Shown: piece by piece, positions 16,627 through 55,775 of the stretch
Position numbering within the stretch: position 1 is the first letter of the stretch
Layout: each line of letters starts with the position of its first letter
Assembly: GCF_036186745.1 (NCBI RefSeq)
Contig: NZ_CP108086.1
Span: 2,728,001 to 2,792,000, forward strand
Direction: 5' to 3'
Source of the DNA: Microbispora hainanensis
GTDB lineage: Bacteria > Actinomycetota > Actinomycetes > Streptosporangiales > Streptosporangiaceae
DNA length: 64,000 nt
Program-made: the position numbers and the translations under genes
Notes under the pieces: generated by a model
What the model was told of the DNA's origin: nothing
Database searches by the model: none
Seen by the model: the letters and a program-made list of their open reading frames with translations, nothing else

Positions 16627-17640
16627 GTGGGAGAGGTCGATCACCCAACGTCGCCTGGCGCGTGCCTGCTAGTAGAGGGGCCCGAAGATGTGCAGCTTCT
16701 GCGCCATGTGCTTGCATATGTGGACATACCGTTCACGGTCAAGTACGTCGGTAGTGACATAGCGCGCACACGCCCTCTGTTGGAGAGGCTCGCCGGCCAC
16801 AAGTTGATCATTGTCTCTATCCTGGGCCAGCGACCCCCTGCCGAGGTCATATCAACAATCGCGGAGGTGTCCCGCACCACGAGGCCGGTGCTTCTTCTGG
16901 CCGCCGATCGAGTGATCACGGCAGATTGGCCCGCAGCTCTGCATAACCTTCCCGTGGTCTTCGCTGACGGTGACCCTGAGGCCATCGGTAAGCGACTTCG
17001 CGCGACGGTCCAACTCCTGGTCAGCGACTATGAGAGAGATTTTGAGAAGGCGGTTGCAGCCCAAGTTCGGTCCGCACGAGCCAAGGAACCCGGCTACGGC
17101 GTAGATATAGAACAATTAGAGCCCACTCGAGTCCCCCCTGGAAATGACTTAGAAAGATTTGAGCCTGCGAGTGCGCTCGTCGACTACTCCGAGGCAAGCC
17201 TCAGTCAACTCGTGGTCCAGGCAAGGGAGGATTCCGGTTCATTTCTAGAGCGAAAATTCGGAGTCTGGCTTGTTCAGGATCTCGGGAATCGGGCCCTGGA
17301 GGTTCCCAGCGATGCCTCCAGCAGAGCAGTACTGGCTCCGCCACCCAGGCCTTGGGATGCGGCGATCTGGGTTGACGCGCTCGGCTCCCCCAGCTTCAAC
17401 CCCGTCCTTGTGAAGTACGGCCGCAATGAAATACAAAAATTCGACCTGCAGGAAAGCATGTTCGACCTGGATCTGCTTTTCGGCATCTTCATCCACGATG
17501 ATGGTGAGCCGGAATGGGAGATCGGCAACGACGCCATCGTCGTCAGTATCGGGATCCACCAACTGGCGCACTACAGCAAGCGCCAATTCCGCAAGCTTAT
17601 GGTGGAAACCCGCGACAGGCTGGTGCTCAGCCAGTCATGA
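16627..17640 (+). CDS. Protein of unknown function paired with a Mrr-like nuclease
   Basis: The 337-residue product opens with CLLVEGPEDVQLLRHVLAYV (about residues 13-32), which resembles the first strand and acidic motif of a TOPRIM-like fold. A Rossmann-like region follows to about residue 130. The C-terminal third (DAAIWVD at 244-250 and NPVLVKYG at 258-265) has the spacing of a PD-(D/E)XK nuclease core, but the expected acidic residue before the lysine is a leucine. Base use is unusual: ATA, AGA and two TTA codons (17116, 17149) point to horizontal transfer and possible bldA-dependent translation. It overlaps the next gene as ATGA. Function is not established. Confidence 0.6.
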   Translation: MGEVDHPTSPGACLLVEGPEDVQLLRHVLAYVDIPFTVKYVGSDIARTRPLLERLAGHKLIIVSILGQRPPAEVISTIAEVSRTTRPVLLLAADRVITADWPAALHNLPVVFADGDPEAIGKRLRATVQLLVSDYERDFEKAVAAQVRSARAKEPGYGVDIEQLEPTRVPPGNDLERFEPASALVDYSEASLSQLVVQAREDSGSFLERKFGVWLVQDLGNRALEVPSDASSRAVLAPPPRPWDAAIWVDALGSPSFNPVLVKYGRNEIQKFDLQESMFDLDLLFGIFIHDDGEPEWEIGNDAIVVSIGIHQLAHYSKRQFRKLMVETRDRLVLSQS

Positions 17641-18167
17641 GTATGACCTTTGCGGCGCGTCTACAGTTTGCCCTTAGCCAGCTGGATCAAGCGCCCAACA
17701 CCACCGGCAAGGGAATGCGTCTGCAGCAGGTCATGGAGCTGGTGATCAGTGCGGCCCCTGGATTCACGGTCGTTGATCGCAACAAATTGGACATGCCCAA
17801 GAGTGCGGAAATTGATTTGTGGATATCCCATGACAGGCGGCCCGTCATACCTTTCATCGATCCACTCGTCCCGATCGAGTGCAAGAACGAAAACGGAAAG
17901 GCTTCGGCCAGCCAGATCCGAGATTTTGCTGGAAAGATCCAGGCAACGGGCGGGTCAGACGGCCTGCTCGTGGCCCGCAAGGGCCTATCTGGGGAAGGCC
18001 TCGAAAGCGCGCATAACGCGATTCATGGCTTTCTGAACAACGGCATCAGAATCCTCGTCCTGACCGGCAATGACTTATCCAAGATGCGCAAACCTAGTGA
18101 CTTCGCACCTCTCCTGAAAGAGCGCTACGTAGAGCTCCGACTCAATCGCACCTACGTCACCTTGTAG
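17637..18167 (+). CDS. Mrr-like PD-(D/E)XK restriction endonuclease-fold protein
   Basis: The 176-residue protein has a recognisable nuclease core: D60 in AEIDLWI, E81 and K83 in PIECKNE. An IRDFAGKIQATGGSDGLLVA segment then parallels the region after the active site in Mrr-type enzymes. It therefore probably cleaves nucleic acid. It begins inside the stop of the preceding gene (ATGA), so the two products are likely made in fixed ratio. A TTA codon lies at 18075. No methyltransferase is adjacent. The next 130 bases hold nothing I recognise. Confidence 0.7.
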   Translation: MSMTFAARLQFALSQLDQAPNTTGKGMRLQQVMELVISAAPGFTVVDRNKLDMPKSAEIDLWISHDRRPVIPFIDPLVPIECKNENGKASASQIRDFAGKIQATGGSDGLLVARKGLSGEGLESAHNAIHGFLNNGIRILVLTGNDLSKMRKPSDFAPLLKERYVELRLNRTYVTL

Positions 18168-18297: not shown

Positions 18298-19515
18298 TCA
18301 GCGGGTCGTTGTTGATTTAGGGGCCAGCTCAGGTCGGGCGGTGACGGTGTCGCGTAAGAAGCTCAGCTTGGAGTAGAACGTGTGCTGTTCTGCCAAGCCG
18401 CTTGTCGCAAGGTGGTCCGAGAGCCAGCGGTCGATGCGTTCCATCTCCCGCAGTACCTCATCTTCGTCATGCTCCAGAAGGCTCCGCGAGCGCCGGTACT
18501 CCAGCTCACACTGCGACAGGACCACCTCGGGTGCCGCCATAAGGGAGCAGTGATCGAAGAAGATGCCATAGACGTGGCCGGTGCGCATCGACTCGCACTG
18601 GACGTCGTAGCGGACGCGCCGGAAGGGCGGCATGGCCTGCACCTGGAGGCCGAGCCTTGAGCCCAGGTACTCTCCGAAGCCGTCTGGAGCAACCTCGATG
18701 TCGGCGTACAGCTGCTCACGGCGTGCGAAGGCGTCCTCCGCATACCACTTGCGCTTCAGCACGTGCTTCCCGTCGACAGTGGGGATGAAAGACGCGTAGC
18801 CGCGTTCCGCAGCGGGGGCTGTGACCTCGAATAGATGGTTCTCGAAGGAGTAGATCTGGAATTCGTCGCGGTACTCCGGCCGGCAGTCGGGTAGCTCGCC
18901 GTAACGGAGGGCCTTCAGCAGCTCCATCGAGGCCGCCCAGATGTCCGTGCCCAGCGCCAGGTTGTACTTGTACTCCAGTTCTGTGCCCGCGAAGTGGGTG
19001 TGGAAGTACCTCAGGTGGTTGTTGAGCCGGAGCGCCGACGTCCTGTGTGCGGCCAGCATCGGGTCCAGCCAGCGCAGCGCTTCCACCGAGCCTCCGCCGA
19101 CCGGCTCGCGAGTGACGCGGACGAAGCAGGCGTCCTCGGGGTGGAACCGGATCTGCGCGTACGCGTGGTATCCGTCAGGGTGTTCGGCCAGGTAGCACAG
19201 CGGTACCAGACCAGGAGCGGAGGCCTCGCCGATCATCTCGCGCAGGGCCGCGCCGGCCATGGCGTCGGGCAGCAGGGCACTGCCCTCAATCAGGCCGCCT
19301 CCGAGCGGGGTGCTTTCTGCGGTCAGGGCGGTGACCTGGCACATACCAAGCGCGTCCCACCTCACGACTACTGTGATGCTCGGGACGCAGACCTCCTGCG
19401 AAGGCACCCGGACCAGGACGATCGGTTCGTCCGGGCGGCGGGGCGCGATCCCATTCAGCAGATGGACTCCTCCCAGGACGACCCAGGTGCCTCGCGGCTG
19501 CGCGTCATTGTCCAT
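18298..19515 (-). CDS. CYTH-like domain protein of unknown function
   Basis: The 405-residue protein has an N-terminal domain without known motifs. A region from about residue 178 begins TELEYKYNL, matching the ExExK signature of CYTH enzymes (E179, E181, K183). Further CYTH-like elements follow in order: LKRKWY, RRVRYD, GIFFDHCSLM and CELEYRRS. CYTH proteins act on organic triphosphates or make cyclic nucleotides with divalent metal. The assignment rests on motif order only. It lies between the nuclease pair and the deazaguanine operon and diverges from the NUDIX gene at 19664. Confidence 0.55.
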   Translation of the reverse strand: MDNDAQPRGTWVVLGGVHLLNGIAPRRPDEPIVLVRVPSQEVCVPSITVVVRWDALGMCQVTALTAESTPLGGGLIEGSALLPDAMAGAALREMIGEASAPGLVPLCYLAEHPDGYHAYAQIRFHPEDACFVRVTREPVGGGSVEALRWLDPMLAAHRTSALRLNNHLRYFHTHFAGTELEYKYNLALGTDIWAASMELLKALRYGELPDCRPEYRDEFQIYSFENHLFEVTAPAAERGYASFIPTVDGKHVLKRKWYAEDAFARREQLYADIEVAPDGFGEYLGSRLGLQVQAMPPFRRVRYDVQCESMRTGHVYGIFFDHCSLMAAPEVVLSQCELEYRRSRSLLEHDEDEVLREMERIDRWLSDHLATSGLAEQHTFYSKLSFLRDTVTARPELAPKSTTTR

Positions 19516-19663
19516 GGCTGGTACCTCCTCCAGGAGCGGGCACGTCAGCGTGCCTCTCCATGTCGTCGCTCTGGTTTCCGCTCGCCGCCTACACGGTGCG
19601 CGCCCGGAGGGTCATCCGGCCGCATTCACGGACCGAGCCGGGTGGCGGCATAGGGTGTGGCGG

Positions 19664-20194
19664 GTGACTCACGGTGTGCCTGGACAAGTGACCTTGGACG
19701 CGGCGATCGCTGATGCTCGCCTCGCTGTACTGGAGTTCGACGACGCTCGGGCCTGGCTGGATCGGGCCCGTCAAAGGCCAATGGAGCCGCTGGCGGCGGA
19801 GGTCTGGGTGACCGACCCCACCTGCAAGCACGTCCTGCTTGTGAGGCATCGCTGGCGCGGTTGGGTGCCGCCCGGAGGCAAGGTCGAGCCAGGTGAGACA
19901 CCACGAGCCGCCGCGTCCCGCGAACTCGCTGAGGAGACCGGTCTGCGGGCTGAGCTGCTGCCAGTTCCGGCGGCGGTATCCGTACGTTCCTACCGTGCGG
20001 ACTGGTCGCCGACGCTGGGCCTGTCGTATGCCGCGATCATCGACCGTGATGTCCCGCTCCACGGACAGAGCGGCCAGCCGCCGAAGTGGTTCCAACTCGG
20101 CGACGAGTGGGAGAGCGTCTTCCCCGAGGATCGCGACCGTATCCAGACGCACGTGCGCAGCCTGGCGGCCGAGCACCTGGGCGAGGTGGGCTGA
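19664..20194 (+). CDS. NUDIX hydrolase
   Basis: The 176-residue product has an N-terminal helical part of about 45 residues and then a NUDIX domain with GGKVEPGETPRAAASRELAE followed by ETGL, a complete catalytic box. The GTG at 19664 is one of several possible starts; none has a strong ribosome site. It is convergent with the NUDIX gene ending the deazaguanine operon, separated by about 20 bases. Confidence 0.82.
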   Translation: MTHGVPGQVTLDAAIADARLAVLEFDDARAWLDRARQRPMEPLAAEVWVTDPTCKHVLLVRHRWRGWVPPGGKVEPGETPRAAASRELAEETGLRAELLPVPAAVSVRSYRADWSPTLGLSYAAIIDRDVPLHGQSGQPPKWFQLGDEWESVFPEDRDRIQTHVRSLAAEHLGEVG

Positions 20195-20214: not shown

Positions 20215-20748
20215 TCAGATGATCTTGTCGATCTGGGCGAGGACGTCGTATGGCAGCGTCAGAAGCCGAAGGTCGTGCAGGAAGCGGGCCCATACCGGCG
20301 TCAGCCCAGGTTGCTCCCTGAACTCCGGTTCGCTGATATGCCCGGTGGCGTAGGCAGCGGTGCGTTGCGCGTACCGCTGGAGCTGATCAGGGTGTATCCA
20401 TCGGGGAGCGCGTACCTCTCGAGCGGACGGGCGGAGTGGACCGGTTGTCTGAGCCTGGTAGATCCACCAGCGGTGGCCGACTTCGCCGCTGATCGAGCGA
20501 CGGCACCGGTTGAGCCGCCATGCGGTCAGCAGCAGGTCGAGGTGGGTGACTGCCATGCCTACTTCTTCGGCGACCTCCGCGATCGCGGCCTGCTCGGGGC
20601 TGCCGTGCTGGTCGATGTGACCGGCAACGGGGGCGATACCGGGGGGTGGCGTCCCCCGTTCGAACATCAGGAGTCCGGCCGGCGAGGAGATGAGCACCCC
20701 GACGCTTGTGCGGTCGCAAAGTGTGTCGGGGAAAGCCAGTGCGGTCAT
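20215..20748 (-). CDS. NUDIX-fold protein, last gene of the deazaguanine operon
   Basis: The ATG at 20748 overlaps the methyltransferase stop as ATGA and was preferred to a longer frame. In the 177-residue product the NUDIX helix is GHIDQHGSPEQAAIAEVAEE followed by VGM. The central AEVAEEVG core is present but the first glutamate of the box is replaced by glycine and the usual arginine by alanine, so activity may be altered. As the ninth translationally linked gene it may process a nucleotide intermediate or clean up a side product. Confidence 0.7.
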   Translation of the reverse strand: MTALAFPDTLCDRTSVGVLISSPAGLLMFERGTPPPGIAPVAGHIDQHGSPEQAAIAEVAEEVGMAVTHLDLLLTAWRLNRCRRSISGEVGHRWWIYQAQTTGPLRPSAREVRAPRWIHPDQLQRYAQRTAAYATGHISEPEFREQPGLTPVWARFLHDLRLLTLPYDVLAQIDKII

Positions 20749-21584
20749 GGCTTCTCCCCAGGCCGTTGGGCGACGACGACGAGCCAACTCGTCACGATCG
20801 GAGCTTCGGGGGTGGTCAGGGCATACGCCTTGTCCAGGATCTCCAGGCGCTGCTCGTGGGTGAAGTCGCCGACGGGCCGGGTGAAGATCGGGATCGAGAG
20901 CCATGCCTTCTTCTCCGCCATGGTGCTGTGCTGAGCGGTGACCTCGGTGTCCAGGACGGTCAGCCCTGCGGCGGCTAGGTGCTCGGTGGCGGCCTCCAGT
21001 GACAGCTTGGGTTGTGCCTCCATGGCTAGGGGCGGCGTGTGGCCGTACTCGCGGACGGCGATCTGGTGGATCAGTGTGGTGAGCGAGGGGCCAGTGTGCG
21101 CGGTCTTCTCGTCCGGGTGGGCGACTCCCGCGAAGCCACTGCCGACGTTGAACACGAACCGGCCGCCGGGCCGCAGAACGCTCCGAACCGCGGTGAACAC
21201 GGCCGGGACGTCGGTCTTCCAGATCGCCGAGTTACACACCACGGCGTCGACCATGCGGGGGACGTGCTCAGCAAGCTCCTCGGCCTGGGCGGTGACCCAT
21301 GACAGGCGCGGGTCGGTCACGATACGGCGACCAACTCGCTGCATGGCGGCGGCGTTGTCCAGGGAGATGACCCGGGCCTCGGCTGGGACCAGGGCGAGGA
21401 CCGCCTCGGCAGTGGCGCCGGCTCCGCCGCACAGGTCGACCACCAGGCGGCTGACGGAGAGGCCTGCGCGCCGGGCCAGGTCGCGGCTGGTAGCGCCGTA
21501 CATGGGGAAGTCGCGGGTGAAGGCGGCGTACGCCTCCGCGGTGGTGTCTTCGTCCCAGCCGAGAAGGGCGTCCTGGGGTGCCAT
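20745..21584 (-). CDS. Class I SAM-dependent methyltransferase
   Basis: The 279-residue protein has motif I as LVVDLCGGAGATAEAVLAL and motif II as RVISLDNAAAM. The post-motif is DAVVCNSAIWKTD, and RSVLRPGGRFVFNVG is the typical strand and turn after it. The substrate is unknown; the acidic/aromatic NPPY signature of DNA adenine/cytosine-N4 enzymes is absent, so a small molecule or RNA is more likely. It lies between DUF2797 and the NUDIX gene in the deazaguanine operon. Confidence 0.82.
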   Translation of the reverse strand: MAPQDALLGWDEDTTAEAYAAFTRDFPMYGATSRDLARRAGLSVSRLVVDLCGGAGATAEAVLALVPAEARVISLDNAAAMQRVGRRIVTDPRLSWVTAQAEELAEHVPRMVDAVVCNSAIWKTDVPAVFTAVRSVLRPGGRFVFNVGSGFAGVAHPDEKTAHTGPSLTTLIHQIAVREYGHTPPLAMEAQPKLSLEAATEHLAAAGLTVLDTEVTAQHSTMAEKKAWLSIPIFTRPVGDFTHEQRLEILDKAYALTTPEAPIVTSWLVVVAQRPGEKP

Positions 21585-21635
21585 GCTGTACCTCGCTTTG
21601 GGGAGAAGAGTCGCGCTCGGTCGCGGGGCCGAGGT

Positions 21636-22559
21636 TCAGAACAGGAAAGCCTGGACCGCGGCACTCGGGGAGGAGAACGGGCCGAGGACGATGCGGCGGC
21701 CGGTGAGCGCGCCGAGGTCGAGGACGTAGTGCATCTCCTCGTCTCGGTCGAGGACGGCGAGGATCTGTGAACCGATGCAGGAGACGGTGGCGAAGCCGTG
21801 CTCACCTTTCCGTAGGTCGTACAGATAGAGCGCCCGCTTACTCCTGCCCGTGCGAAGGAGGTCCCCTTCGGCTGGCGGGGTCCATGCCTCCAGCACCAGC
21901 GGAGCGTTCATATCAGTGAGCGCGTCGGCGGCGCGCGCGACATGCTCCTCATGGGCAGTGCGGGCGGCAGCCAGGTCGATCAGGCCGGTCAGGGCTTGGA
22001 GCTTGGCCGCGGCCCGTACGATCTGCGGCAGTTGCAGGCGGCGGGCGAGCGCGTCTTCGAGATAGCGAACGGCGCGGCCGTCGGGGCTCTTGGTCACGTA
22101 GGTAGCGAAAAGTGCGCCCTGTTCGTCGAGGCGGGAGCGCTTGCGTGGCTCGGCGGCGGTGCCGACCTTGGTCGCTCCGTCGGCGAAGGTCGCCAGGTAC
22201 AGCCAATGCGGCTGGGCCATGTAGCGGACGAGCGCCTCAGGGGCGTGGCCGCCCTGATGGAACTGGTGGGCGAAGCGGAAATCGTCCTGCCGAGCGCACC
22301 GGGCGCACTGCCCGCTCTGCTCTGCAGGCGCGCGGTCGGGGCAGGCAAGGGCCTCCACACGGACGGACCCGGCGAACTGGTACCGACCCGTGCACCAACG
22401 GCCGGCAACGGCCACCCGGAAGCCGAGGCGCTGGCCCATGAACTCGGCGTACGCCAGCGACCCACCGGGAAGCGGAGCGAGCAGCAGCCGGGGATCGCCG
22501 GTCGCCCACGTGACGCCGTGGCACACGTACTCGGCGGCTTCGAATAAAGGCACTGGCAC
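21636..22559 (-). CDS. DUF2797 / GIY-YIG-like protein
   Basis: The GTG at 22559 follows GAGGAA at good spacing. The 307-residue protein has a Cys-containing N-terminal half (CARCARQDDFRFAH, a possible metal site with an upstream cysteine). It also has a GIY-YIG-like strand pair (HWLYLATFADGATKVGTA, then RKRSRLDEQGA). These match the DUF2797 family, whose function is not established. Its position inside the operon suggests a nucleic-acid-facing role, but that is inference. Confidence 0.7.
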   Translation of the reverse strand: MPVPLFEAAEYVCHGVTWATGDPRLLLAPLPGGSLAYAEFMGQRLGFRVAVAGRWCTGRYQFAGSVRVEALACPDRAPAEQSGQCARCARQDDFRFAHQFHQGGHAPEALVRYMAQPHWLYLATFADGATKVGTAAEPRKRSRLDEQGALFATYVTKSPDGRAVRYLEDALARRLQLPQIVRAAAKLQALTGLIDLAAARTAHEEHVARAADALTDMNAPLVLEAWTPPAEGDLLRTGRSKRALYLYDLRKGEHGFATVSCIGSQILAVLDRDEEMHYVLDLGALTGRRIVLGPFSSPSAAVQAFLF

Positions 22560-22590
22560 GATGTGTTCCTCGTCGTGGGGTGAGGGTGGT

Positions 22591-23292
22591 TCAGATGGCG
22601 AGCTCGAGGCGGCCGGCAAGGGCGTCGGCTACGGTCTTGAACACGGTGTCGCGGTCCATGTCGGTGACGTCCAGGGACAGCCAGTTGCCGCGTTGTTCCT
22701 GTTCGTTCAGTTGGGCCAGGACGGTGTCCTGGTAGCGGATGAAGTCCTCGTCGCCGCTGCCGGAGTGGCCGGTCTCCAGCGAGGTGAACTCGCCCTTGCG
22801 CCGCAGAGCTTCGCGGGCGCCGAGGCGCAGAAAGATCACAAGGTCGGGTTCGGTGAGGTGGGCGAAAACCTGCTCGGCGAGGTGCGTGGAGACGGCCGGG
22901 TTGACCGCGTAGCGGGCGAGGATCTTGTGGTGCGCGTTGTCGAGAATGACGTGGGTACCGGCGGCCAGCGCGGGCTGGATAACGAGCTTGTCCTGGAGGG
23001 AATACCAGGCAGCCAGCGCCAGCAGCCAGTAGTGGTCGCCGCAGGCCTGGGCGACCCGCACGTCGCGGCGGTAGACGAGTTCGTTGAGCCGGTCCAGATA
23101 GGCGGACAGATCAGGGTCCATGGGGACGTCGGTGGTGTGCTTGCCGACGAGGATGGCCGGGTGGCCGGTGTCGAGCAGGGCAAGGTGCAGGCGAGCGGCG
23201 AGAGTGGACTTGCCCGCCCCGTCGATGCCGGTGACCGTGATCTGCCGCCCGCGGGCGGCCCCGTGGGTGGCAGGGTGTGCTGCGACCGTCAT
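22591..23292 (-). CDS. Thymidylate kinase-like P-loop protein
   Basis: The 233-residue protein has Walker A GIDGAGKSTLAARL, the same as dTMP kinase. A downstream region contains an aspartate-rich LTEPDLVIFLRLGAREALRR, matching the DR/LID-proximal strand of that family. The DRY motif typical of dTMP kinase (substrate base specificity) is replaced by LDNAHHKILAR. A different nucleotide substrate, possibly a deazaguanine nucleotide, is therefore plausible. It is gene six of the operon, 17 bases after the phosphorylase-like gene. Confidence 0.75.
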   Translation of the reverse strand: MTVAAHPATHGAARGRQITVTGIDGAGKSTLAARLHLALLDTGHPAILVGKHTTDVPMDPDLSAYLDRLNELVYRRDVRVAQACGDHYWLLALAAWYSLQDKLVIQPALAAGTHVILDNAHHKILARYAVNPAVSTHLAEQVFAHLTEPDLVIFLRLGAREALRRKGEFTSLETGHSGSGDEDFIRYQDTVLAQLNEQEQRGNWLSLDVTDMDRDTVFKTVADALAGRLELAI

Positions 23293-23309
23293 GGTCGTAT
23301 CCCTCCGTT

Positions 23310-24377
23310 TCAGATGAGGCGGGCTGCCAGCCGGTTCGTGAGGATGTCGCGGATGCGGCCGACCAAGAGGGCGCGCCGCCGGACGACGTCACCGTGACGC
23401 TCATTCGACAGGTCCGCGGGGTAGTGGCGGGCGAGGTTGTTGGAGATGACGTGGAGGTAGCCGAAGCCAATCCCCGCGTTGCGCGCAGCCGCCCCCATCG
23501 AGCCGATCTCGGGATCCACGAAGGCGTGCTCGGCGTGCCTGGCCAGCCAGTCGCGGTTCTCCAGCAGGATCGATGGGGAAGTCACGTGGAGGCCCGTGTG
23601 CACACCGGGCTGGGCGACGGCGAAGTCGCCGAAGAAGTCGTTCCACGTGACGAGCTCACCGTCGACGAGGCTGGCATTGCCGGTCGCGAGCATCGTGTTG
23701 GGCTCGATCTGGGGTGCCAGAGCGCCGACCTTGCCCACGTAGACAAGGTCGCTGGCCCCGAGCTCGGCCAGTCGGTGGACCACGCGGCCGGCAACGTCGC
23801 CCCAGATACTGTGCCGGAAGCCGAGGTAGACCACACGACGGCCGTGCATCGTGGCCCGGTGCCAGGCATAGCCCGGCCCGTGCGTCCATACCGCGTCGGC
23901 AGGTGCCAGATGCTCCAGCGCCCAACCGACGATGACCAGGTCGCCGTCGAGCCCGAGGTTGAGCTGCGCGACGGCCGCACGGCACAGAGCTGGGTCGGGC
24001 AGTTGGTATGTGACGTTGTCAGTGGGACGACCGGTCATCGCGAGGTACGTCGCAATGATCAGCCCGTAGTGGTGGATGTAGTCGGTGCCGGGGAACGCCT
24101 TGACCAGCAGGTCTCGGCCGTGGGCCTCTGCCGTGGGGCGCTCCCAGTTGAAGAGCTTGCCGTCCTTCTCGTACCGGGAGATCTCCGCTCGGCGGTCATA
24201 TCCGCCAATGACCCGGATGTTGTCCCAGGACTGTTCCTGAACGAGGTGGTGGACCTTGATCTGCAGGTAGCGCAGCAGGCGGCCCGGGCTCATCGTGTGC
24301 CCGTCCACATTGATCGGCGCCGCGGGCAGAACCGCACTGGTGCTGCCGGCGAGCATCTGGTCGGGCGCGAGGCTCAT
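23310..24377 (-). CDS. Nucleoside phosphorylase-superfamily-like protein
   Basis: The 355-residue protein has no clear family, but its C-terminal half follows the PNP/UDP-phosphorylase layout. A strand ends in LVYVGKVGALAPQIEPNTML, comparable to the glycine-rich turn plus the SP/GD segment of PNP. FVDPEIGSMGAAARNAGI sits where the base-contacting Glu helix lies, and HVISNNLA where the catalytic Asp/Asn strand lies. If correct it could join or release a sugar from a deazaguanine base. The N-terminal 130 residues are unassigned. It overlaps the transglycosylase gene (ATGA). Confidence 0.5.
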   Translation of the reverse strand: MSLAPDQMLAGSTSAVLPAAPINVDGHTMSPGRLLRYLQIKVHHLVQEQSWDNIRVIGGYDRRAEISRYEKDGKLFNWERPTAEAHGRDLLVKAFPGTDYIHHYGLIIATYLAMTGRPTDNVTYQLPDPALCRAAVAQLNLGLDGDLVIVGWALEHLAPADAVWTHGPGYAWHRATMHGRRVVYLGFRHSIWGDVAGRVVHRLAELGASDLVYVGKVGALAPQIEPNTMLATGNASLVDGELVTWNDFFGDFAVAQPGVHTGLHVTSPSILLENRDWLARHAEHAFVDPEIGSMGAAARNAGIGFGYLHVISNNLARHYPADLSNERHGDVVRRRALLVGRIRDILTNRLAARLI

Positions 24378-25192
24378 GAGCGAGCCTCCGGGATCCGCAC
24401 ACTGCTGCCCGCTGCCGATCGGACGACGGCGATGTTCCGCCGGATCAGGTCGAACCGCTCCTCCGGGATCGGCCCGAGGTGTTCGATGCGCGGAGTCTTG
24501 GGCTTCTCATACGGCCCGTCGAGGAGCATCGCGATGCCCAGCGCGCCGAGCACGACTGGGGCGGCGCCGTCGACGGAGGCAATCCACTCATGCTCGCGCT
24601 GTTCGACCAGCTCCAGATGTCCGGTTCGGCCGAGGCCCAGCAGCCGGTAGACGATCCGCTCGTCGACCATGCCACGGTCCTCCAGGTAGCGGGTGGCTGT
24701 CCACCGCGTACGGCACAACTGCTCCTCGGGAGCGGGATGCCGGGAAGCGGGCAGTGCGATCGCGCCAACGTAGTCGCTGGAGACGAAGTGGTCGTAGCAG
24801 CGCAGCCACTCTTCGTCGTCCGCCGCGTGCAGTACTGCGCACAGGCGGAACTCATCGCTCATATCGTGGATCTCACGAGCGGCCTCGTCGCTGGCCTTGA
24901 TAGTCGCGGCTCCGTCCCGCATGACGTCCGGAAGGATGATCTCGCGGGCGCCGACCGCGCAAGCAGCCGCAACCAGATCGGCGGCCGGCAGAGCGTGGCC
25001 GAGATCGAAGACGCCATTGTCGACGATGATCTCCGCGCCACGTTCGGCCTCCCGACGGAAGAACGCCCGATAGGTGGAGTCGGACAAGACGCGCTGGGCG
25101 GCCACATGGTGCACGCGGGCCGGCTCCTGGGCGACGAACATCTCCAAGTATTCGGGCGGCGCGATCACCGAAAAGTCGATGGTCTTGGCCAT
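24374..25192 (-). CDS. tRNA-guanine transglycosylase superfamily protein, DpdA-like
   Basis: The 272-residue product starts at the ATG 25192, which overlaps the folE stop (TGATG). It has the TGT barrel pattern: IIVDNGVFDLG (first catalytic-type Asp), REIILPDVMRDGAAT, and WIASVDGAAPVVLGALG in the place of the nucleophile Asp. It lacks the CXCXXC zinc site of classical bacterial TGT and is short, which resembles phage and island DpdA enzymes that insert deazaguanines into DNA. The substrate here is unproven and could be DNA, tRNA or a small molecule. Confidence 0.65.
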   Translation of the reverse strand: MAKTIDFSVIAPPEYLEMFVAQEPARVHHVAAQRVLSDSTYRAFFRREAERGAEIIVDNGVFDLGHALPAADLVAAACAVGAREIILPDVMRDGAATIKASDEAAREIHDMSDEFRLCAVLHAADDEEWLRCYDHFVSSDYVGAIALPASRHPAPEEQLCRTRWTATRYLEDRGMVDERIVYRLLGLGRTGHLELVEQREHEWIASVDGAAPVVLGALGIAMLLDGPYEKPKTPRIEHLGPIPEERFDLIRRNIAVVRSAAGSSVRIPEARS

Positions 25193-25890
25193 CACACCGC
25201 TCCCCGCTGCCCCGAGGCGATGGTGAGGAATTGCTGGGAGAGGACCGGATCGTGCTTGAAAAGGCCGCCGACCTGCAGGGTGGTGGTGCGGGCGGCTTCC
25301 ATCCGCACCCCTCGCATACTCATGCACAAGTGGGTTCCGCGGACGGCGACCGCCACATCTTTGCCGCCGACCACGCGGGCGATCTCCTTGGCGACCTGCC
25401 GGGTGAACCGCTCCTGCACCTGGAGCCGTCCGGCGTAGTGCTGAGCGATCCGCCCGAACTTCGACAGCCCGATCACCTCACCGTCCGGCAGGTAACCGAT
25501 CGCGACCTCCAGGTTCATGGGCAGCAGGTGATGCTCGCACAGGGACCACACGCTCATGCCGCCAACCACGACGAGCTGAGCGCTGAGGCGGGTCTCCGTG
25601 AAGGACGTGACCATGGCACAGGGCTCGGGCATCAAGAATGAGCTCCACCAGGACGCGACCCGGGCCGGCGTGTCGACCAGGCCCTCCCGCTCGGGGTCCT
25701 CGCCGAGCGCGGCCAGCAGTTGGCCGATCAGCTCGGTGACGCGCTTGGTGTCGACCGGTCTCGGCGCTGCAGGGCCAGGCTGTGCTGGCACGGTCGCACT
25801 TTGACCGGGCGTGGAACCGTAGACGGCGTTCGTCATGGACGTCGCCTCGGTTGCAATGGTGGGGGAATTGAACATGGGGTGGGCGCTCAT
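25192..25890 (-). CDS. folE: GTP cyclohydrolase I
   Basis: The 232-residue protein is type IA GTP cyclohydrolase I, which converts GTP to dihydroneopterin triphosphate. The zinc and catalytic residues are visible in SLCEHHLLPM and RGTHLCMSMRG. A less conserved 45-residue N terminus precedes the core. It overlaps queD (ATGA) and the transglycosylase gene, so it is dedicated to this pathway rather than to general folate synthesis. Confidence 0.93.
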   Translation of the reverse strand: MSAHPMFNSPTIATEATSMTNAVYGSTPGQSATVPAQPGPAAPRPVDTKRVTELIGQLLAALGEDPEREGLVDTPARVASWWSSFLMPEPCAMVTSFTETRLSAQLVVVGGMSVWSLCEHHLLPMNLEVAIGYLPDGEVIGLSKFGRIAQHYAGRLQVQERFTRQVAKEIARVVGGKDVAVAVRGTHLCMSMRGVRMEAARTTTLQVGGLFKHDPVLSQQFLTIASGQRGAV

Positions 25891-26297
25891 CGCTCCTCCA
25901 CGTCGAAGCGAGCCCAGCTGTGCTCCGTCTCCCGGACCTGGACGGCGACCAGTCGGCCGGGGATACCCGGCTCGACGTTCTGGATGAACCAGCCAGCCAA
26001 GAACTGAGCCAGATGCTCAGAAGTCGGCTCGACGGGCATGATCTCGTGCAGGTTGTGGTGGTCAAGCTCGGTATCCAGGAACCTTCTGAACGGCGCGAGG
26101 TCCCCGAAGTCGGTGACGAAGCCTGGGCCTTCCAGGACCGCCGCAGTGAGGATCAACTCGACCTCGTAGCTGTGCCCGTGCTGCCGCGAGCACTTGTGCT
26201 CCGGCGCGAGGCTGGGGAGCCGGTGCCCGGCCTCGAAGTCGAACAACTTGCCGATGGTGTGCTTGCCCGGCGGGAGCGATACCGAGCTGAAGTCCAT
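25887..26297 (-). CDS. queD: 6-carboxytetrahydropterin synthase
   Basis: The ATG at 26297 follows GGGGAG; the longer frame to 26435 lies outside the family's usual length. The 136-residue product has the zinc histidines in FEAGHRL and QHGHSYEV, with the QueD-type catalytic cysteine in CSRQHGH. It makes 6-carboxy-5,6,7,8-tetrahydropterin from dihydroneopterin triphosphate, the substrate of QueE. It lies 140 bases downstream of queE and overlaps folE. Confidence 0.9.
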   Translation of the reverse strand: MDFSSVSLPPGKHTIGKLFDFEAGHRLPSLAPEHKCSRQHGHSYEVELILTAAVLEGPGFVTDFGDLAPFRRFLDTELDHHNLHEIMPVEPTSEHLAQFLAGWFIQNVEPGIPGRLVAVQVRETEHSWARFDVEER

Positions 26298-26437
26298 GGA
26301 CTCCCCCTGAACGTGAGTTTCGGCGATATGAGCGGCTGGGGACCGCAAGCCAGGTGACTGCTGGTTGTGGGTTCTCGGGAAATGACGTGAGAGCGCACCT
26401 GACCTGCGGTTCTGTCGAAGAAGGTTCATCCACAAGG

Positions 26438-27172
26438 TCAGCGGCCTCGCTTGTCACCCCACAGCAGTACGTGAAGGCGTTGGGTCATCGACCAGCCGCG
26501 GGCGATTACGTCGTCGGCCAGCTCGCGGGCCCGAGAGATGACCGCGTCGGGAGTCGTGCCCTCCGGCATCACGTACACCGGAGTCAGCCCGTAGCGCTGC
26601 ACCAGATCCTCGATCTCGTCCAGGTCCGACCTGTCGGTAGCGACGAACTTGAAGGTCGAGCGACCGCTTTCGGCCAGGGCGGTCAACGCCTCGGGGACGA
26701 TGCGCACTCTCTGTGGCACGCTGGCGTTGGACAGCTTGGGCGAGACATTGAAGCGGACACCGTCGATGAGGAGTCCGGAGAGCGGCGCGAATGTGCCATT
26801 CGTCTCGAACTCCACTCGGCGGCCGGCGTCGACCAGGCGGCGCACCAACGGGACGAGCTTCCTCTGCTGGATCAGTGGTTCCCCGCCGGTGATCACCACG
26901 AGCGGCGTATCCAGAAGCAGCAGTTCGTCTCCCACCTCCATGACGCTGCGCCGCGACGACTCGTTGCGCAGGTCGTATCGGACGTTGTCCCAGGTGTAGG
27001 GGGTGTCGCACGGCATCCGCCCGCTACAGGTCAGGTTGCACCGAGAAAGGCGGAGGAAGGCCGCCCGCGTGCCGAGGCTGGGCCCTTCGCCCTGGAATGT
27101 GGGGCCGAACAGTTCCGCGACGATCAGGCCGGTTTCCCGTATCGAGATGGCAGCGGTGCTTTGCTCGCTCAT
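26438..27172 (-). CDS. queE: 7-carboxy-7-deazaguanine synthase (radical SAM) with atypical cysteine spacing
   Basis: The ATG at 27172 has AGGAG upstream. The 244-residue protein has the QueE start LFGPTFQGEGPSLGTRAAFL, the SAM-binding TGGEP, and ETNGT. It converts carboxytetrahydropterin to 7-carboxy-7-deazaguanine. The cluster motif reads RCNLTCSGRMPCDTPYTW, with cysteines at 45, 49 and 55 (CX3CX5C). The usual form is CX3CX2C, so there are three extra residues before the last cysteine. It is the first gene of a nine-gene operon; the 211 bases upstream should hold the promoter, but I see no clear box or riboswitch. Confidence 0.88.
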   Translation of the reverse strand: MSEQSTAAISIRETGLIVAELFGPTFQGEGPSLGTRAAFLRLSRCNLTCSGRMPCDTPYTWDNVRYDLRNESSRRSVMEVGDELLLLDTPLVVITGGEPLIQQRKLVPLVRRLVDAGRRVEFETNGTFAPLSGLLIDGVRFNVSPKLSNASVPQRVRIVPEALTALAESGRSTFKFVATDRSDLDEIEDLVQRYGLTPVYVMPEGTTPDAVISRARELADDVIARGWSMTQRLHVLLWGDKRGR

Positions 27173-27839: not shown

Positions 27840-27928
27840 CCTCGTCTCCTCGCGGTTGAACCACTCCGACTTTCGTGGAGGCCCTGAAGCCAGCATCATC
27901 TGCTGGCGGAAGGGAGAATCACGTCACG

Positions 27929-28248
27929 ATGCCAGCCCCGAGGAAGTATCCCCAAGAGCTTCGAGAGCGCGCGGTCCGGATGGTGTTTGAGGTTCGCCGG
28001 CAGACCGGCGGTGCCCCCGGCGCGATCGCCCGGGTGGCCGATCAGCTCGGTGTTCACCGCGAGGCGCTGCGCGGGTGGGTGCGCCAGGCCGAGATCGACG
28101 AGGGACAGCGTCCCGGCACCTCGACCGCTGATGCGCAGCGGATCGCCGAGCTGGAGCGTGAGGTGCGCGAGCTGCGCCGCGCCAACGAGATCCTCAAGGC
28201 CGCGGCCGCTTTTTCGCGGCCGAACTCGACCCACGGCCGCCCAGGTAG
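27929..28248 (+). pseudogene. IS3 OrfA, probably frameshifted near its end
   Basis: The N-terminal helix-turn-helix (PRKYPQELRERAVRMVFEVR) and leucine-zipper region (AELEREVRELRRANEILKAA) are typical. At 28209-28215 the run GCTTTTTC has five T. Six T would give the expected AAAFFAAELDPRP ending and a stop at 28246-28248, with orfB in the -1 phase. With five T the frame runs on without a stop to 28927. This suggests a one-base loss in the slippery run, although transcript slippage on the T-run could repair it. Confidence 0.6.
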
Positions 28249-29150
28249 TTGCCTTCATCGACGCTCACCGCGGCGCTTTCGGCGTCGAGCCGATCTGCCA
28301 AGTGTTGCAGGTGGCGACGTCGACGTACTACGCGGCCAAGTCCCGCCCGCCCTCCGCGAGGGCGGTGCGGGACGCCCAGCTCATGGCCGAGATCACCACG
28401 GTGTGGAACGAGAACTTCGAGGTGTATGGCGTGCGCAAGATGTGGAAAGAGCTCAACCGGCGCGGCACCCGCGTGGCGCGGTGCACCGTGGCCCGGCTGA
28501 TGAAGCGCCTGGGGCTTGCCGGGGCGGTGCGCGGGGATCACAAGCGGCCCACGACAACGATCTCCGAAGCCCTCACCGAGCGGACCGAAGACCTGGTCAA
28601 ACGCGACTTCACCGCCCCCGCCCCGAACCGGTTGTGGGTCGCCGACCTGACCTACATCCCCACCGCGTCGGGGTTCGTGTACGCGGCGCTGGTGATCGAC
28701 GCGTTCTCGCGGATGATCGTCGGCTGGCGTCTGGCCGATCATCTGCGCACCGACCTGGCGCTGGACGCGCTGGAGATGGCCATCTGGCGTCGCGGAGACG
28801 GACGGCGGCTGGAAGGGCTGGTGCACCACTCCGACCGCGGCTGCCAGTATCTGTCGATTCGCTACACCGAGCGCCTGTCGGGTGCCGGGGCGGTCTGCTC
28901 GGTCGGCTCCCGTGGGGACAGCTATGACAACGCCCTGGCCGAAAGCACCATCGGGCTGTACAAAACCGAGCTGATCCACCGGCGCGGCCCGTGGAACGGC
29001 CTGGACGACGTCGAGATCGCCACCATGGAATGGGTCGACTGGTACAACAACCGGCGCCTCCACAGCGCCTGCAACGACCTCCCACCAGCCGAATTCGAGA
29101 CCCACTACCGAACACAAACCGCCACGGCTATCCTCACCCCAGCCAGCTAA
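28203..29150 (+). CDS. IS3 OrfB transposase (integrase core)
   Basis: This DDE integrase has an HTH_21-like start (AFIDAHRGAFGVEPICQVLQ), WVADLTYIPTASGF (first D), VHHSDRGCQYLS (second D), and NALAESTIGLYKTELI (E), ending in the WYNNRRLHSACNDLPPAEFE motif. It is expressed in this family as a fusion with OrfA, so the exact start is not defined by a normal initiation codon. Confidence 0.85.
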   Translation, partial: RPLFRGRTRPTAAQVVAFIDAHRGAFGVEPICQVLQVATSTYYAAKSRPPSARAVRDAQLMAEITTVWNENFEVYGVRKMWKELNRRGTRVARCTVARLMKRLGLAGAVRGDHKRPTTTISEALTERTEDLVKRDFTAPAPNRLWVADLTYIPTASGFVYAALVIDAFSRMIVGWRLADHLRTDLALDALEMAIWRRGDGRRLEGLVHHSDRGCQYLSIRYTERLSGAGAVCSVGSRGDSYDNALAESTIGLYKTELIHRRGPWNGLDDVEIATMEWVDWYNNRRLHSACNDLPPAEFETHYRTQTATAILTPAS

Positions 29151-29180
29151 CCCGGCCTCCACGAAACTCGGCGCGGTTCA

Positions 29181-30577
29181 GGGTGTACCTTCCCGATGAT
29201 CATGTAGGTCTCATGCATGACCGACGCGCCAACGTCGGTCGGGAAGGCACACCCGTGCTCACCGTAGTCCCTGACCCCGCTGACGGCGACCGCCGTACCG
29301 CAGACGCCCCGGTCTCCTCCTCCCTGATCGACGAGATCGTCCGGGAAGGCGCCCGCAGGATGCTCGCCGAAGCGCTCAAAGCCGAGGTCGATGCCTATAT
29401 CGCCCAGTTCTCCGATCAGCGTGACGACGATGGGCGCCGTCTGGTGGTGCGTAACGGCTACCACCAGGCGCGCGAGGTGCTGACCGCGGCCGGCGCGATC
29501 GAGGTCAAGGCGCCCAGGGTCAACGACAGGCGCGTCGATGAGGTCACCGGCGAGCGCAAGCGCTTCTCCTCGGCGATCCTGCCGCCCTGGGCGCGCAAGA
29601 CACCGAAGATCACCGAGGTGCTGCCACTTCTCTACCTGCACGGCCTGTCCTCCGGTGACTTCGTCCCAGCGCTGGGGCAGTTCCTCGGCTCGGCGGCCGG
29701 CCTGTCGGCGCCGGTCATCACGAAGCTGACCGAGCAGTGGAAGGCCGAGCAGCGTGCCTTCGCCGACCGTGACCTGTCGGGCGTGGACTACGTCTACCTG
29801 TGGGCCGACGGGGTGCACGTCAACGTCCGCCTGGAGGAGCACCGTTTGTGCCTGCTGGTGATGATCGGCGTGCGCGCCGACGGCCGTAAGGAGCTCATCG
29901 CGCTGTCCGACGGCTACCGCGAGTCGACCGAGTCGTGGGCCGACCTGCTGCGCGATTGCAAACGGCGGGGGATGCGCGCGCCGGTGCTGGCCGTCGGGGA
30001 CGGCGCACTGGGGTTCTGGGCCGCCCTCGGTGAGGTGTTCCCGCGGGCCAGGGCTCAAAGGTGCTGGTTTCACAAAATCGCCAACGTGCTGGGAGCCATG
30101 CCGAAGTCCGCACAGAGCGGCGCGAAGAAGGCGTTGGCGGAGATCTGGAACGCCGAGGACAAAGACCACGCCCTGGCGGCGGTGAAGGCGTTCCAGGCCG
30201 CTTACGGGGCCAAGTACGGCAAGGCCGTGGCCAAGGTCGTCGACGACGTGGACGAGTTGCTAGCGTTCTACGACTTCCCAGCCGAGCATTGGGTGCATCT
30301 GCGCACGACCAACCCCATCGAGTCGACGTTCGCCACCGTGCGGCACCGCACCAAGGTCACCAAAGGCCCCGGTTCACGGGCGGCCGGGCTGGCCATGGCG
30401 TTCAAGCTGATCGAGTCAGCCCAGGCCCGCTGGCGCGCGGTCAACGCACCCCACCTCGTCGCCCTGGTCCGCGCCGGGGCCACCTTCGTCAACGGCAAGC
30501 TCGTCGAACGCCCCGACGATCAGCCCTCACCAGCAGCTGCTTAGGAACTCGTGATCCACAGGTCTTGACGATTGCTC
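29181..30577 (+). mobile_element. IS256-family element, copy 1, left end missing
   Basis: It is nearly identical to the complete copy at 31677-33108, but the first 35 bp, which include the left inverted repeat, are absent. The IS3 element abuts this point. The right end (GATTGCTC at 30577) is intact and cuts the propeller-like gene after its codon for Trp. Having lost one terminus the copy is probably immobile, though its transposase gene is full length. Confidence 0.85.
29213..30544 (+). CDS. IS256-family (Mutator) transposase, copy 1
   Basis: The 443-residue product has the family motifs: VYLWADGVHVNVR (first D), ADGRKELIALSDGYRES, VLAVGDGALGFWAALGEVFP (second D), RCWFHKIANVL (C/H pair), and TTNPIESTFATVRHRTKVTK (E). 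It differs from copy 2 by only a few residues (for example RARAQRC against QARAQKC). An alternative GTG start lies at 29254. Confidence 0.92.
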   Translation: MHDRRANVGREGTPVLTVVPDPADGDRRTADAPVSSSLIDEIVREGARRMLAEALKAEVDAYIAQFSDQRDDDGRRLVVRNGYHQAREVLTAAGAIEVKAPRVNDRRVDEVTGERKRFSSAILPPWARKTPKITEVLPLLYLHGLSSGDFVPALGQFLGSAAGLSAPVITKLTEQWKAEQRAFADRDLSGVDYVYLWADGVHVNVRLEEHRLCLLVMIGVRADGRKELIALSDGYRESTESWADLLRDCKRRGMRAPVLAVGDGALGFWAALGEVFPRARAQRCWFHKIANVLGAMPKSAQSGAKKALAEIWNAEDKDHALAAVKAFQAAYGAKYGKAVAKVVDDVDELLAFYDFPAEHWVHLRTTNPIESTFATVRHRTKVTKGPGSRAAGLAMAFKLIESAQARWRAVNAPHLVALVRAGATFVNGKLVERPDDQPSPAAA

Positions 30578-31676
30578 CAGGGCACCTGCTGCAGCCCAAT
30601 CGACAGGTCGAGGTTCCACCGGGGGGTACTGGGCGTGACGGCCGAGGTCACCGACGTTATCTTGGCTCGCGCCGGGTATGGGGTAGGACCGGGATCTACG
30701 GTGACTGTTGCTCGGACTGCGTCTTCGGGATACGTGCGGCCGAGGTCGGAGCCCGCGAAGGCGAGAACGCTGCCATGGCCGTACTCCTTCCCGTCCACGC
30801 GTCTGGTTGAGGCATAGAAGCGGTCGCCTTCGACCGCCAAGCTGCCCGTGAAGGCGTAATACTCGGTGCTGTCGGCCCCGCCCACCTGGGCGATGGTGGA
30901 GACTTTGTCTCCCGTTTTCTGATCATATGTAGCAAAGACGAGCTGAACACAACCCCATGGGGAGGAGCTGTCGCAGCTGGAGCCGTCAGCGGCACCCACG
31001 ATGAAGCGGCCGTTACTGGTACCGTGAAGCGCGACCACGTTGCCACTGAGCGAGTGTCTGGTCCACGAATTGCCGCCATCGGGCGCGAATTTGGTCACTG
31101 CGGAGGCCATGCCATCTGTCCATCCCGCGGAACTGCCTGCGACCAGGGCGCCGCCGTCAGCGGTGGTGGCGACAAGGGGATCGGTGAAGCCAACACTTTG
31201 CATGACGTCCGGCAACAGCTTGATCCAGTTCATGCCGTTGTCAGGAGAGAAGGCCGCGATACTCGTCCGATTCCTGTCATCTCGGGCACTTACAAGGGCG
31301 TAAGCCCTCCCGTCTGCGGTGACTGCGGCTTCTTCACCGATATAGTTCTCCGGCACCGTGTGGGTGGTGACGGTCCGACCATCTGCGCTCATGTACGCGA
31401 CGGCCGTTCCCGTGTCAACCGCGAACACTCCGCCGTCGAAGGGCATGAGCCTCTGGGTGTGGAAGCCGGTTGGAAAGCGCGCGGTACGAAGAAGGTCGCC
31501 GGTGTCCGCCTTGTAGACATGAATGGCTTGGCCGTTGCGCCCTGAGCTGTCGGTCTCCAGCACGTATACGTGGTCGTTCCCGAGGGAGATGCCGTAGTGA
31601 CCTTCCGGGAGTGCGGCACTCCATTTAATGGCGGCAGCGGTGCGCAGCCGTAGTAGCGAGGCCACGGTGCCGCCGG

Positions 31677-35417: not shown

Positions 35418-35494
35418 TGGTCGGGGTGGCGGGATTTGAACCCACGGCCTCTTCGTCCCGAACGAAGCGCGCTGCCAAGCTGCGCTACACCCCG
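35418..35494 (-). tRNA. tRNA-Pro (anticodon CGG)
   Basis: On the minus strand the acceptor stem CGGGGTG pairs with CACCCCG, followed by A and an encoded CCA. The anticodon arm is CTTCGT-TCGGGA-type with loop TTCGGGA, anticodon CGG; the T arm contains GTTCAAATC. The 3' end faces the accessory half of the window, a common integration site for actinobacterial elements. Confidence 0.93.
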
Positions 35495-55666: not shown

Positions 55667-55694
55667 TTACTTGTTTAAAGCTTTCTTGTAATAC
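55667..55694 (+). promoter_or_regulatory. Candidate promoter of the 6C RNA
   Basis: TTACTT (55667-55672), a 16-base spacer and TAATAC (55689-55694) precede the RNA. The start would be about 55700, near the base of its first hairpin. Confidence 0.6.
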
Positions 55695-55698
55695 GGGA

Positions 55699-55775
55699 CC
55701 GGCTCTACCCCCCCAGAGCCGGACCGCAAGGCGACCCCCGCTCTCCCCCCCCGGCGGGGGTCGCCCTTTTTCTCG
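55699..55775 (+). ncRNA. 6C small RNA
   Basis: Two GC-rich hairpins are visible. The first is CCGGCTCT/AGAGCCGG with a loop of seven C (55708-55714). The second is GGCGACCCCCG/CGGGGGTCGCC with a loop containing a run of C, followed by TTTTT. This is the actinobacterial 6C RNA: conserved position upstream of the ssd gene and C-rich loops that, in mycobacteria, pair with GG-rich mRNA sites. The second hairpin with the T-run also acts as its terminator. Confidence 0.9.

Follow-up and report, generated by a model that had tools for sequence, protein, structure and literature searches.

The locus consists of nine genes on the minus strand, all read in one direction, at positions 20215 to 27172 of a 64,000-nt stretch of Microbispora hainanensis DNA (the window), where they were identified through open reading frames and profile searches. 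The original prediction of a nine-gene operon was borne out in coordinates and content; gene starts were set by conservation among homologues, which revised the coordinates of the TGT-like, queD and last NUDIX genes and probably fixes the extent of the DUF2797 gene (Table 1). A gap of 140 bp separates queE from queD, whereupon queD overlaps folE by 4 bp, folE the TGT-like gene by 1 bp and the latter the gene of the phosphorylase-like (PNP-like) protein by 4 bp. Gaps of 17 bp, 31 bp and 51 bp then lead to the thymidylate-kinase-like (TMPK-like), DUF2797 and methyltransferase genes, the last overlapping the NUDIX gene by 4 bp. No deazaguanine riboswitch was found in the window with Rfam at the gathering threshold. 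An Mrr-like gene lies in the window past the 3' end of the operon, and some genes of the window we take to encode transposases.

Table 1. Genes of the operon and associated genes, with the matches and the number of homologous loci that support them
Feature	Position	Strand	Evidence
queE	26438..27172	-	PHROG 2076 QueE 6.1e-56; 37/37 loci
queD, 6-carboxytetrahydropterin synthase	25887..26297	-	PF01242 1.2e-24; 37/37 loci
folE, GTP cyclohydrolase I	25192..25890	-	PF01227 8.8e-52; 37/37 loci
DpdA/TGT-superfamily base-exchange enzyme (predicted), 272 aa	24374..25192	-	D58, D89, D208 invariant; 37/37 loci
Nucleoside-phosphorylase-like (PNP-like) protein, unique N-terminal region	23310..24377	-	37/37 loci
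Thymidylate-kinase-like (TMPK-like) P-loop kinase	22591..23292	-	PF02223 3.2e-9; 36/37 loci
DUF2797 protein	21636..22559 (probable)	-	PF10977 1.3e-7; 36/37 loci
Class I SAM-dependent methyltransferase	20745..21584	-	PF13649 1.5e-11; 36/37 loci
NUDIX hydrolase B, last gene of the operon	20215..20748	-	PF00293 5.6e-12 (longer start); 26/37 loci
NUDIX hydrolase A, convergent with the operon	19646..20194 (start approximate)	+	PF00293 1.7e-16; 34/37 loci
405-aa protein, optional member	18298..19515	-	16/37 loci; no Pfam match

The search for the same gene order in other genomes, proposed with the original prediction, found 38 loci, of which 37 were compared, a fragment (L038) being left out and L039-L041 being repeats of known places or near copies. 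The maintenance of gene content and order across these loci excludes chance; some of them are near-identical (L007, L008 and L037), so the counts do not represent independent events. In one locus (L016) nothing follows a truncated PNP-like gene. The nine genes stand as predicted, but the conserved unit is wider, since it generally includes NUDIX A and, less often, the 405-aa protein. NUDIX A is located on the strand opposite to the operon in all loci having it except Frankia L036, where the 405-aa and methyltransferase genes share 4 bp. The operon is patchily distributed, being present in three of 100 relatives (own genome included), and it is carried also by four Streptomyces plasmids; the set is thus mobile as well as conserved among actinomycetes. 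Upstream genes in Streptomyces presumably encode an acyl-CoA dehydrogenase, a roadblock protein and the like, and a gene in L096-L098 presumably a reverse transcriptase. The operon is undescribed in the open-licence papers searched, and the gene set is new as far as these searches show.

FolE, QueD and QueE would convert GTP into CDG. Among solved structures, the operon QueE matches best the CDG synthase 5tgs (1.7e-17); it scores 92 bits with TIGR03365 (3e-26), under the cut-off of 206, and its identity to the top 40 phage QueE proteins is 38-43%. The operon folE, which falls 157 bits short of the TIGR00063 cut-off, is one of three folE matches in its genome, the other two being over that cut-off. 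No queC match was obtained in the 8.8-Mb single-contig genome, with a search that detects 12 of 14 controls, nor by tblastn in the 37 loci. The genome count covered 36 of the 38 loci, leaving out L038 and L013 (same organism as L010), and 27 of these genomes contain no queC over the cut-off. Among the remaining nine, the distance between queC and the operon is about 17 kb in G760 and G731, and about 58 kb in Microbispora triticiradicis. Seven stretches around queC were inspected in six of the nine (all but G730, G731 and G732): in five genomes the gene stands outside the operon, in other islands, and in the sixth it belongs to a variant cluster (L099). No co-conservation of queC elsewhere was seen. 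Without QueC, CDG would not be converted into preQ0, and the distribution of queC makes it most likely that the base supply stops at CDG, as originally proposed. Moreover, a bacterial TGT over the cut-off occurs in one of 37 operon genomes, and the M. hainanensis genome has no match to PF01702.

The 272-aa product of the fourth gene was predicted to be TGT/DpdA-like, and structural and profile matches support its assignment to the DpdA/TGT superfamily. Its predicted fold is a TGT-type β/α barrel, for which the DNA preQ0 insertase DpdA ranks first in VIA-align, while the best Foldseek matches are tRNA-guanine transglycosylases. All 30 sequences compared, drawn from operons, variants, phages and viruses, retain the three aspartates in Table 1, and D208, aligned with the nucleophile region of Escherichia coli TGT, is probably the nucleophile. 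With hhalign, P was 4e-4 for two TGTs together, 2e-3 for one actinobacterial TGT and 1e-3 for bacterial DpdA; the values for E. coli TGT alone (0.038) and the Mycobacterium phage Bipper enzyme (0.078) do not stand above the best of six controls (0.007-0.74). The protein has no Pfam match, PF01702 included, as is also the case for the Bipper and Flavobacterium phage immuto enzymes with PF01702, and sequence searches of the PDB gave no useful match. Its closest sequence relatives are found in phages and viral contigs, within queD-queE-folE modules; queE and folE lie upstream in 12 of 19 viral loci, though L058-L060 look alike and independent cases are fewer. The immuto homologue is annotated DpdA, and one phage relative inspected, that of Bacillus BSP7, carries a QueC gene. 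As predictions, CDG synthesis and base exchange have good support.

Of the labels proposed for the remaining proteins, those of DUF2797, methyltransferase and NUDIX agree with the Pfam matches of Table 1, and that of dTMP kinase also with the profile match to thymidylate kinase 1e9f (1.3e-11). The phosphorylase-like label holds less firmly: with hhalign the family matches E. coli uridine phosphorylase at 79%, across 70 columns, and does not match E. coli mtn, but PF01048 (6e-4) and HpnG remained under their cut-offs. The DUF2797 protein contains conserved Cys residues, and its AF2 model (pLDDT 68 overall) arranges residues 118-175 as strand-strand-helix-strand-helix, an order suggestive of the GIY-YIG fold; a profile search of the PDB gave nothing convincing, the best hit (5ag8, E 0.0085) being judged chance. 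In the 405-aa protein, which gave no convincing PDB profile match, E179, E181 and K183 (E-x-E-x-K) are invariant in 12 of 12 sequences, a motif that we take to be CYTH-like. The methyltransferase matches PADLOC mad2 over part of its length (3e-12); PADLOC matches were weak or generic. A plain phage or prophage remnant was rejected because the PNP-like family lacks relatives in viral contigs, and neither its L099 homologue nor the TMPK-like protein has phage relatives.

Two further clusters contain some of these components. In Amycolatopsis (L099) the TGT-, phosphorylase- and TMPK-like and DUF2797 genes are kept together with a Gat-QueC gene, a guanylate-kinase-like protein and a HIT protein, and Lamassu genes adjoin the cluster. 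A compact Streptomyces cluster (L062) consists of queD-queE-folE-DpdA-like-NUDIX, adjoined by an MFS transporter and a LacI regulator, and its stretch contains no queC by tblastn. Clusters of the latter type were searched for in 396 Actinomycetota genomes, where three matched, own included. Matches to the L062 protein occur in nine of 246 Streptomyces genomes; the sole strong one (60%) is a fragment whose surroundings lack que genes, and the full reading of three more (L081-L083) showed the operon described here.

Cadeguomycin is the riboside of CDG, and would be the simplest nucleoside product of the operon pathway. It is produced by S. hygroscopicus according to PMC6112128, and PMC12648386 lists it among compounds without an identified cluster. 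One operon locus (L025) comes from a strain titled S. hygroscopicus, possibly a coincidence. In the tubercidin route of Streptomyces tubercidicus, as PMC6112128 describes it, GCH I, CPH4 synthase and CDG synthase supply the CDG, which TubE ribosylates. Hence the suggestion that CDG itself is the donor stands as to the supply but was overstated as to novelty, since CDG glycosylation is known, CDG has been suggested for the queC-less phage Bipper, and the use of CDG alone is not new. Both sets have folE, queD and queE homologues predicted to supply CDG without QueC (for the tub cluster, as far as the table excerpt of PMC6112128 shows), and a NUDIX hydrolase; the PRPP transferase TubE, the GMP-reductase-like TubD, a UbiD decarboxylase and an MFS transporter belong to the tub cluster only, none of the four being found by Pfam among the operon proteins. 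The toyocamycin and huimycin clusters of actinomycetes likewise contain FolE/QueD/QueE homologues but, unlike the operon, include QueC (ToyM, HuiB), and the accessible text of PMC7439116 names no DpdA-like gene.

As originally stated, the gene set differs both from the classical queuosine operon and from the dpd island, as judged from Pfam, NCBIfam, PADLOC and PF01702 searches. It shares with the bacterial dpd island (dpdA-K) a DpdA fold, 7-deazaguanine supply and patchiness, but lacks QueC, restriction genes and both DpdB and DpdC, found neither in the nine operon proteins with Pfam and NCBIfam nor in eight of them with PADLOC; membership of the island was rejected on these grounds. A separate dpd-like island, with genes that we take to be dpdB and dpdC, lies about 58 kb from the operon in one genome (L093). 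As for phages, dCDG was reportedly found in phage DNA in 2023. The immuto and Bipper modules combine the same base-supply genes with a DpdA-type enzyme, whereas the operon resides in host chromosomes or plasmids and adds the PNP-like, TMPK-like, DUF2797, methyltransferase and NUDIX genes; the Bipper enzyme also differs, belonging to phrog_887 and not aligning to the operon enzyme above controls. Bipper lacks queC, and CDG was suggested as its base (PMC6884629).

We infer the activities, exchange substrate, order of steps and product as follows. The DpdA-like enzyme would replace the guanine of a guanosine-containing substrate with CDG, with Asp208 probably acting as nucleophile, and the resulting CDG nucleoside or nucleotide would be processed by the methyltransferase, the NUDIX hydrolases, the TMPK-like kinase and the phosphorylase-like protein. 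We therefore consider a small CDG-derived nucleoside or nucleotide the most likely output, possibly cadeguomycin or a methylated form of it, with the operon acting as a mobile accessory cluster; we favour it tentatively, and narrowly, over DNA modification. In its favour are: (i) the scarcity of queC and of bacterial TGT in operon genomes, together with the structural and profile match of the fourth protein to TGT/DpdA; (ii) the resemblance of the accessory genes to nucleoside and nucleotide enzymes, to which L099 adds two more; (iii) the tubercidin route, with its ribosylated CDG and NUDIX enzyme; (iv) the title of the L025 strain, and (v) the transporter and regulator beside the queC-less L062. 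Against it, to our knowledge TGT/DpdA enzymes act only on the polymers tRNA and DNA, the closest relatives are viral, Pfam scans of the operon proteins showed no PRPP transferase or exporter, the PNP-like protein is weakly assigned, and no compound is linked here to any operon strain. Moreover, keeping the same four genes with another base supply in L099 would be odd for one product. A bolder version, which we regard as rather unlikely, is that a TGT-superfamily enzyme was recruited to small molecules, with CDG placed either on a free guanine nucleotide or in nucleic acid that the operon enzymes then degrade, to give cadeguomycin-type nucleosides; the DpdA-like, PNP-like, TMPK-like and DUF2797 core would be exchangeable, using CDG here and the Gat-QueC product in L099.

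DNA modification is a serious competitor, though also short of an even chance. The DpdA-like enzyme would replace guanine by CDG in the DNA of the host or of plasmids, yielding dCDG, perhaps methylated, as a self mark or part of a restriction-modification-like system; the other genes would recycle or sanitise CDG nucleotides, and DUF2797 may be a nuclease. The top rank of DpdA in VIA-align, the phage and viral modules, the immuto annotation, the base suggested for Bipper and the plasmid-borne, patchy distribution argue for it, as do the Mrr-like gene and the Lamassu genes, neighbours of this kind being present in few loci. However, no DpdB, DpdC or helicase-nuclease set occurs among the scanned proteins, the PADLOC matches are weak or generic, the BSP7 relative has QueC, and we know of no role for NUDIX, PNP-like or kinase genes in dpd systems. 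A TGT has been reported in a BREX-related system (PMC12839542), which also speaks for DNA. Incorporation of CDG or a derivative into tRNA or other RNA is improbable: the Foldseek matches and the general lack of bacterial TGT would fit, but no RNA-binding domain exists besides the barrel, the closest relatives are viral, and a patchy, plasmid-borne distribution suits tRNA modification poorly. Ordinary preQ0/queuosine supply with queC elsewhere, to which the nine queC genomes would lend themselves, is largely refuted and very improbable, queC and bacterial TGT being mostly missing and queC, where inspected, belonging to other islands or to variant L099.

If a CDG nucleoside or nucleotide metabolite is the product, the operon would represent a new biosynthetic route to deazaguanine nucleosides, for which cadeguomycin is an obvious candidate; if DNA is the substrate, it would constitute a CDG-based system of host DNA modification.

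The nine genes were found where the original prediction had placed them, tightly packed on the minus strand, in a source genome that is a single contig of 8.8 Mb. In a Pfam scan of the window proteins FolE and QueD match PF01227 and PF01242; QueE matches PHROG 2076 (6.1e-56) and scores 92 bits against TIGR03365, under the cut-off of 206. The QueE cysteine pattern is CX3CX5C in the window and in loci L001-L003, with three extra residues ahead of the third cluster cysteine, and CX3CX2C in 32 other loci, two giving no pattern match. Thirteen of 37 loci have a QueD of 221-230 aa; of these, the three inspected as sequences (L007, L013 and L014) resemble a tandem duplicated QueD. Two folE matches besides the operon folE occur in the genome, so the housekeeping folE is not missing. 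The TGT-like (DpdA-like) protein matched no Pfam family, and the nucleoside-phosphorylase-like (PNP-like) protein matched PF01048 weakly, under cut-off. The sixth product is a thymidylate-kinase-like (TMPK-like) P-loop protein, and the remaining ones are DUF2797, a class I methyltransferase (MT) and a NUDIX protein.

A gene-level comparison covered 37 of the 38 loci that a scan for the TGT-like protein detected in genome contigs. All 37 have queE, queD, folE and the TGT-like and PNP-like genes, and 36 have the TMPK-like, DUF2797 and MT genes. The terminal NUDIX gene occurs in 26, a second one (NUDIX A) in 34, and a gene for a 405-aa protein in 16. Compared with the window, the median identity is 80% (TGT-like), 79% (TMPK-like), 76% (queD), 73% (PNP-like), 72% (MT), 69% (folE), 67% (DUF2797) and 56% (queE). 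The lowest identities are 63% (TGT-like), 59% (TMPK-like), 58% (PNP-like), 51% (MT) and 49% (DUF2797), falling to 40% for queE, 38% for queD and 33% for folE; hence the base-supply genes diverge most or get replaced. Their order also varies, and the search for the same arrangement in other genomes, proposed originally, recovered the order TGT-PNP-TMPK-DUF2797-MT in those compared loci that hold these genes.

The operon is accessory. With its own genome counted, it occurs in 3/100 relatives and in 3/396 genomes across the phylum; a PNP-like protein search gave 19/297 genomes in the family of one Amycolatopsis, a count in which the seed genomes and some weak fragments are included. Four Streptomyces plasmid records, one fully read, carry the TGT-like gene (72-83% identity) and are matched by the PNP-like and 405-aa proteins. 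Lentzea pudingi has two operon copies (L010 and L013), and a Streptomyces clavifer plasmid holds NUDIX A and the 405-aa protein without the rest, adjoining ABC and MFS transporter genes. A family of ~428 aa, presumably an acyl-CoA dehydrogenase, clustered in 14/38 sequences, most often ahead of a Streptomyces operon, and is absent from the window. There, two plus-strand genes lie past the operon 3′ end; the second has an Mrr_cat match slightly under cut-off, and in ORF clustering both group with L002 genes, the first also with one L003 gene. Directly upstream of the operon, reading by eye, stand an apparent duplicated insertion sequence and ORFs that we take to be transposase-like.

No queC was found in the own genome by a search that rings in 12/14 controls, nor, by tblastn with three QueC proteins, in the window, the 37 loci or the plasmid and Streptomyces operon copies read. 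These absences back the proposal that CDG, which QueC would turn into preQ0, may itself be the donor base. Among 36 operon genomes queC passes the family cut-off in nine and matches at E 0.001 in 16, weak partial matches counted; bacterial TGT passes its cut-off in 1/37 genomes. From this scarcity of both, most operon genomes are expected to use CDG rather than preQ0 as the base. However, queC is merely ~17 kb from the operon in two of them (G760 and G731).

Seven queC stretches were viewed, from six of the nine positive genomes. In L093-L095 queE and queD accompany queC, separate from the operon (L094 and L095 by tblastn only); in Microbispora triticiradicis (L093) queC-queE-queD lies ~58 kb from it on the same contig, followed by genes that we take to be dpd-like. 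In L096-L098, from two genomes, queC adjoins a presumably reverse-transcriptase-like ORF, and in L097 and L098 ORFs that we label DUF6884-like and glycosyltransferase-like stand beside the queC-like gene. queE- and queD-like sequence is found 6-7 kb from queC in L097 and was not found with it in stretches L096 and L098. The queC-like and reverse-transcriptase-like ORFs possibly form a separate island.

The remaining stretch, L099, is a second cluster in Amycolatopsis saalfeldensis, which also holds the standard operon. It comprises a Gat-QueC fusion, guanylate-kinase-like, TGT-like (43% identity), PNP-like (56%), HIT, TMPK-like (37%), QueE, QueD and DUF2797 (39%; hhalign 99.8%) genes, adjoins matches to LmuC, LmuB and LmuA of a Lamassu system, and is the sole example of its kind found in this analysis. 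Because it pairs the TGT-like, PNP-like, TMPK-like and DUF2797 genes with another base supply, it suggests that these four are a core combinable in this way.

More distantly, a Streptomyces chartreusis plasmid carries a compact set of queD, queE, folE, a DpdA-like gene (27% identical) and a NUDIX gene, adjoining an MFS transporter, a LacI regulator and a HAD hydrolase; tblastn found no queC in this 20.7-kb stretch. In a Klebsiella pneumoniae plasmid (L078) a distant PNP-like gene precedes DMT transporter, NUDIX and DegT-type aminotransferase genes; four further Klebsiella plasmid records have this match (23-25% identity), L078 alone being read. In Flavobacterium phage immuto an annotated thymidylate kinase gene stands shortly past an annotated dpdA; the operon TMPK-like protein had no tblastn match among phages.

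Positions of features in the window and in the compared stretches
Feature	Sequence	Position	Source
Two genes past operon 3′ end	window	16627-18167 (+)	
queE	window	26438-27172 (-)	
Region directly upstream of operon	window	27875-32985	by eye
tRNA	window	35421-35494	Rfam
6C RNA element	window	55693-55769	Rfam
QueD resembling a tandem duplication	L007	5917-6606	
~428-aa family member	L022	2830-4116	
~428-aa family member	L081	9851-11461	
Thymidylate kinase gene past dpdA, phage immuto	L063	9385-9909	
NUDIX A and 405-aa protein, S. clavifer plasmid	L077	11330-13203	
Distant PNP-like to aminotransferase genes, K. pneumoniae plasmid	L078	7863-11349	
queC-queE-queD, M. triticiradicis	L093	9835-15180	
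Second cluster, A. saalfeldensis	L099	1-19001	

From families and fold, FolE, QueD and QueE are predicted to synthesise CDG, and the DpdA-like enzyme would swap guanine for it. We tentatively favour a small CDG-derived molecule as output, given the PNP-like protein, one or two kinases and NUDIX of the operon, the HIT added in the variant, the operon's hosts, and the existence of cadeguomycin, for which the portion of the source consulted reports no cluster (PMC12648386). Tubercidin provides a precedent: in the consulted part of its source, TubE ribosylates CDG and TubG is, as in the operon, a NUDIX hydrolase (PMC6112128). The nucleoside enzymes have to be weighed against the best VIA-align match of the DpdA-like protein and its viral relatives, both of which point to DNA modification, an output that we rate as only slightly less likely. 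RNA as the target of the base exchange is improbable. The precise roles of the PNP-like, DUF2797, MT and 405-aa proteins are ones that we infer.

Glycosylation of CDG is already known from tubercidin, and CDG in DNA has been suggested for phage Bipper in the part of that source consulted (PMC6884629). The literature search returned no description of a conserved cellular operon in which CDG supply is combined with a DpdA-like enzyme and these nucleoside enzymes; as far as searched, this union of the three is what is new.
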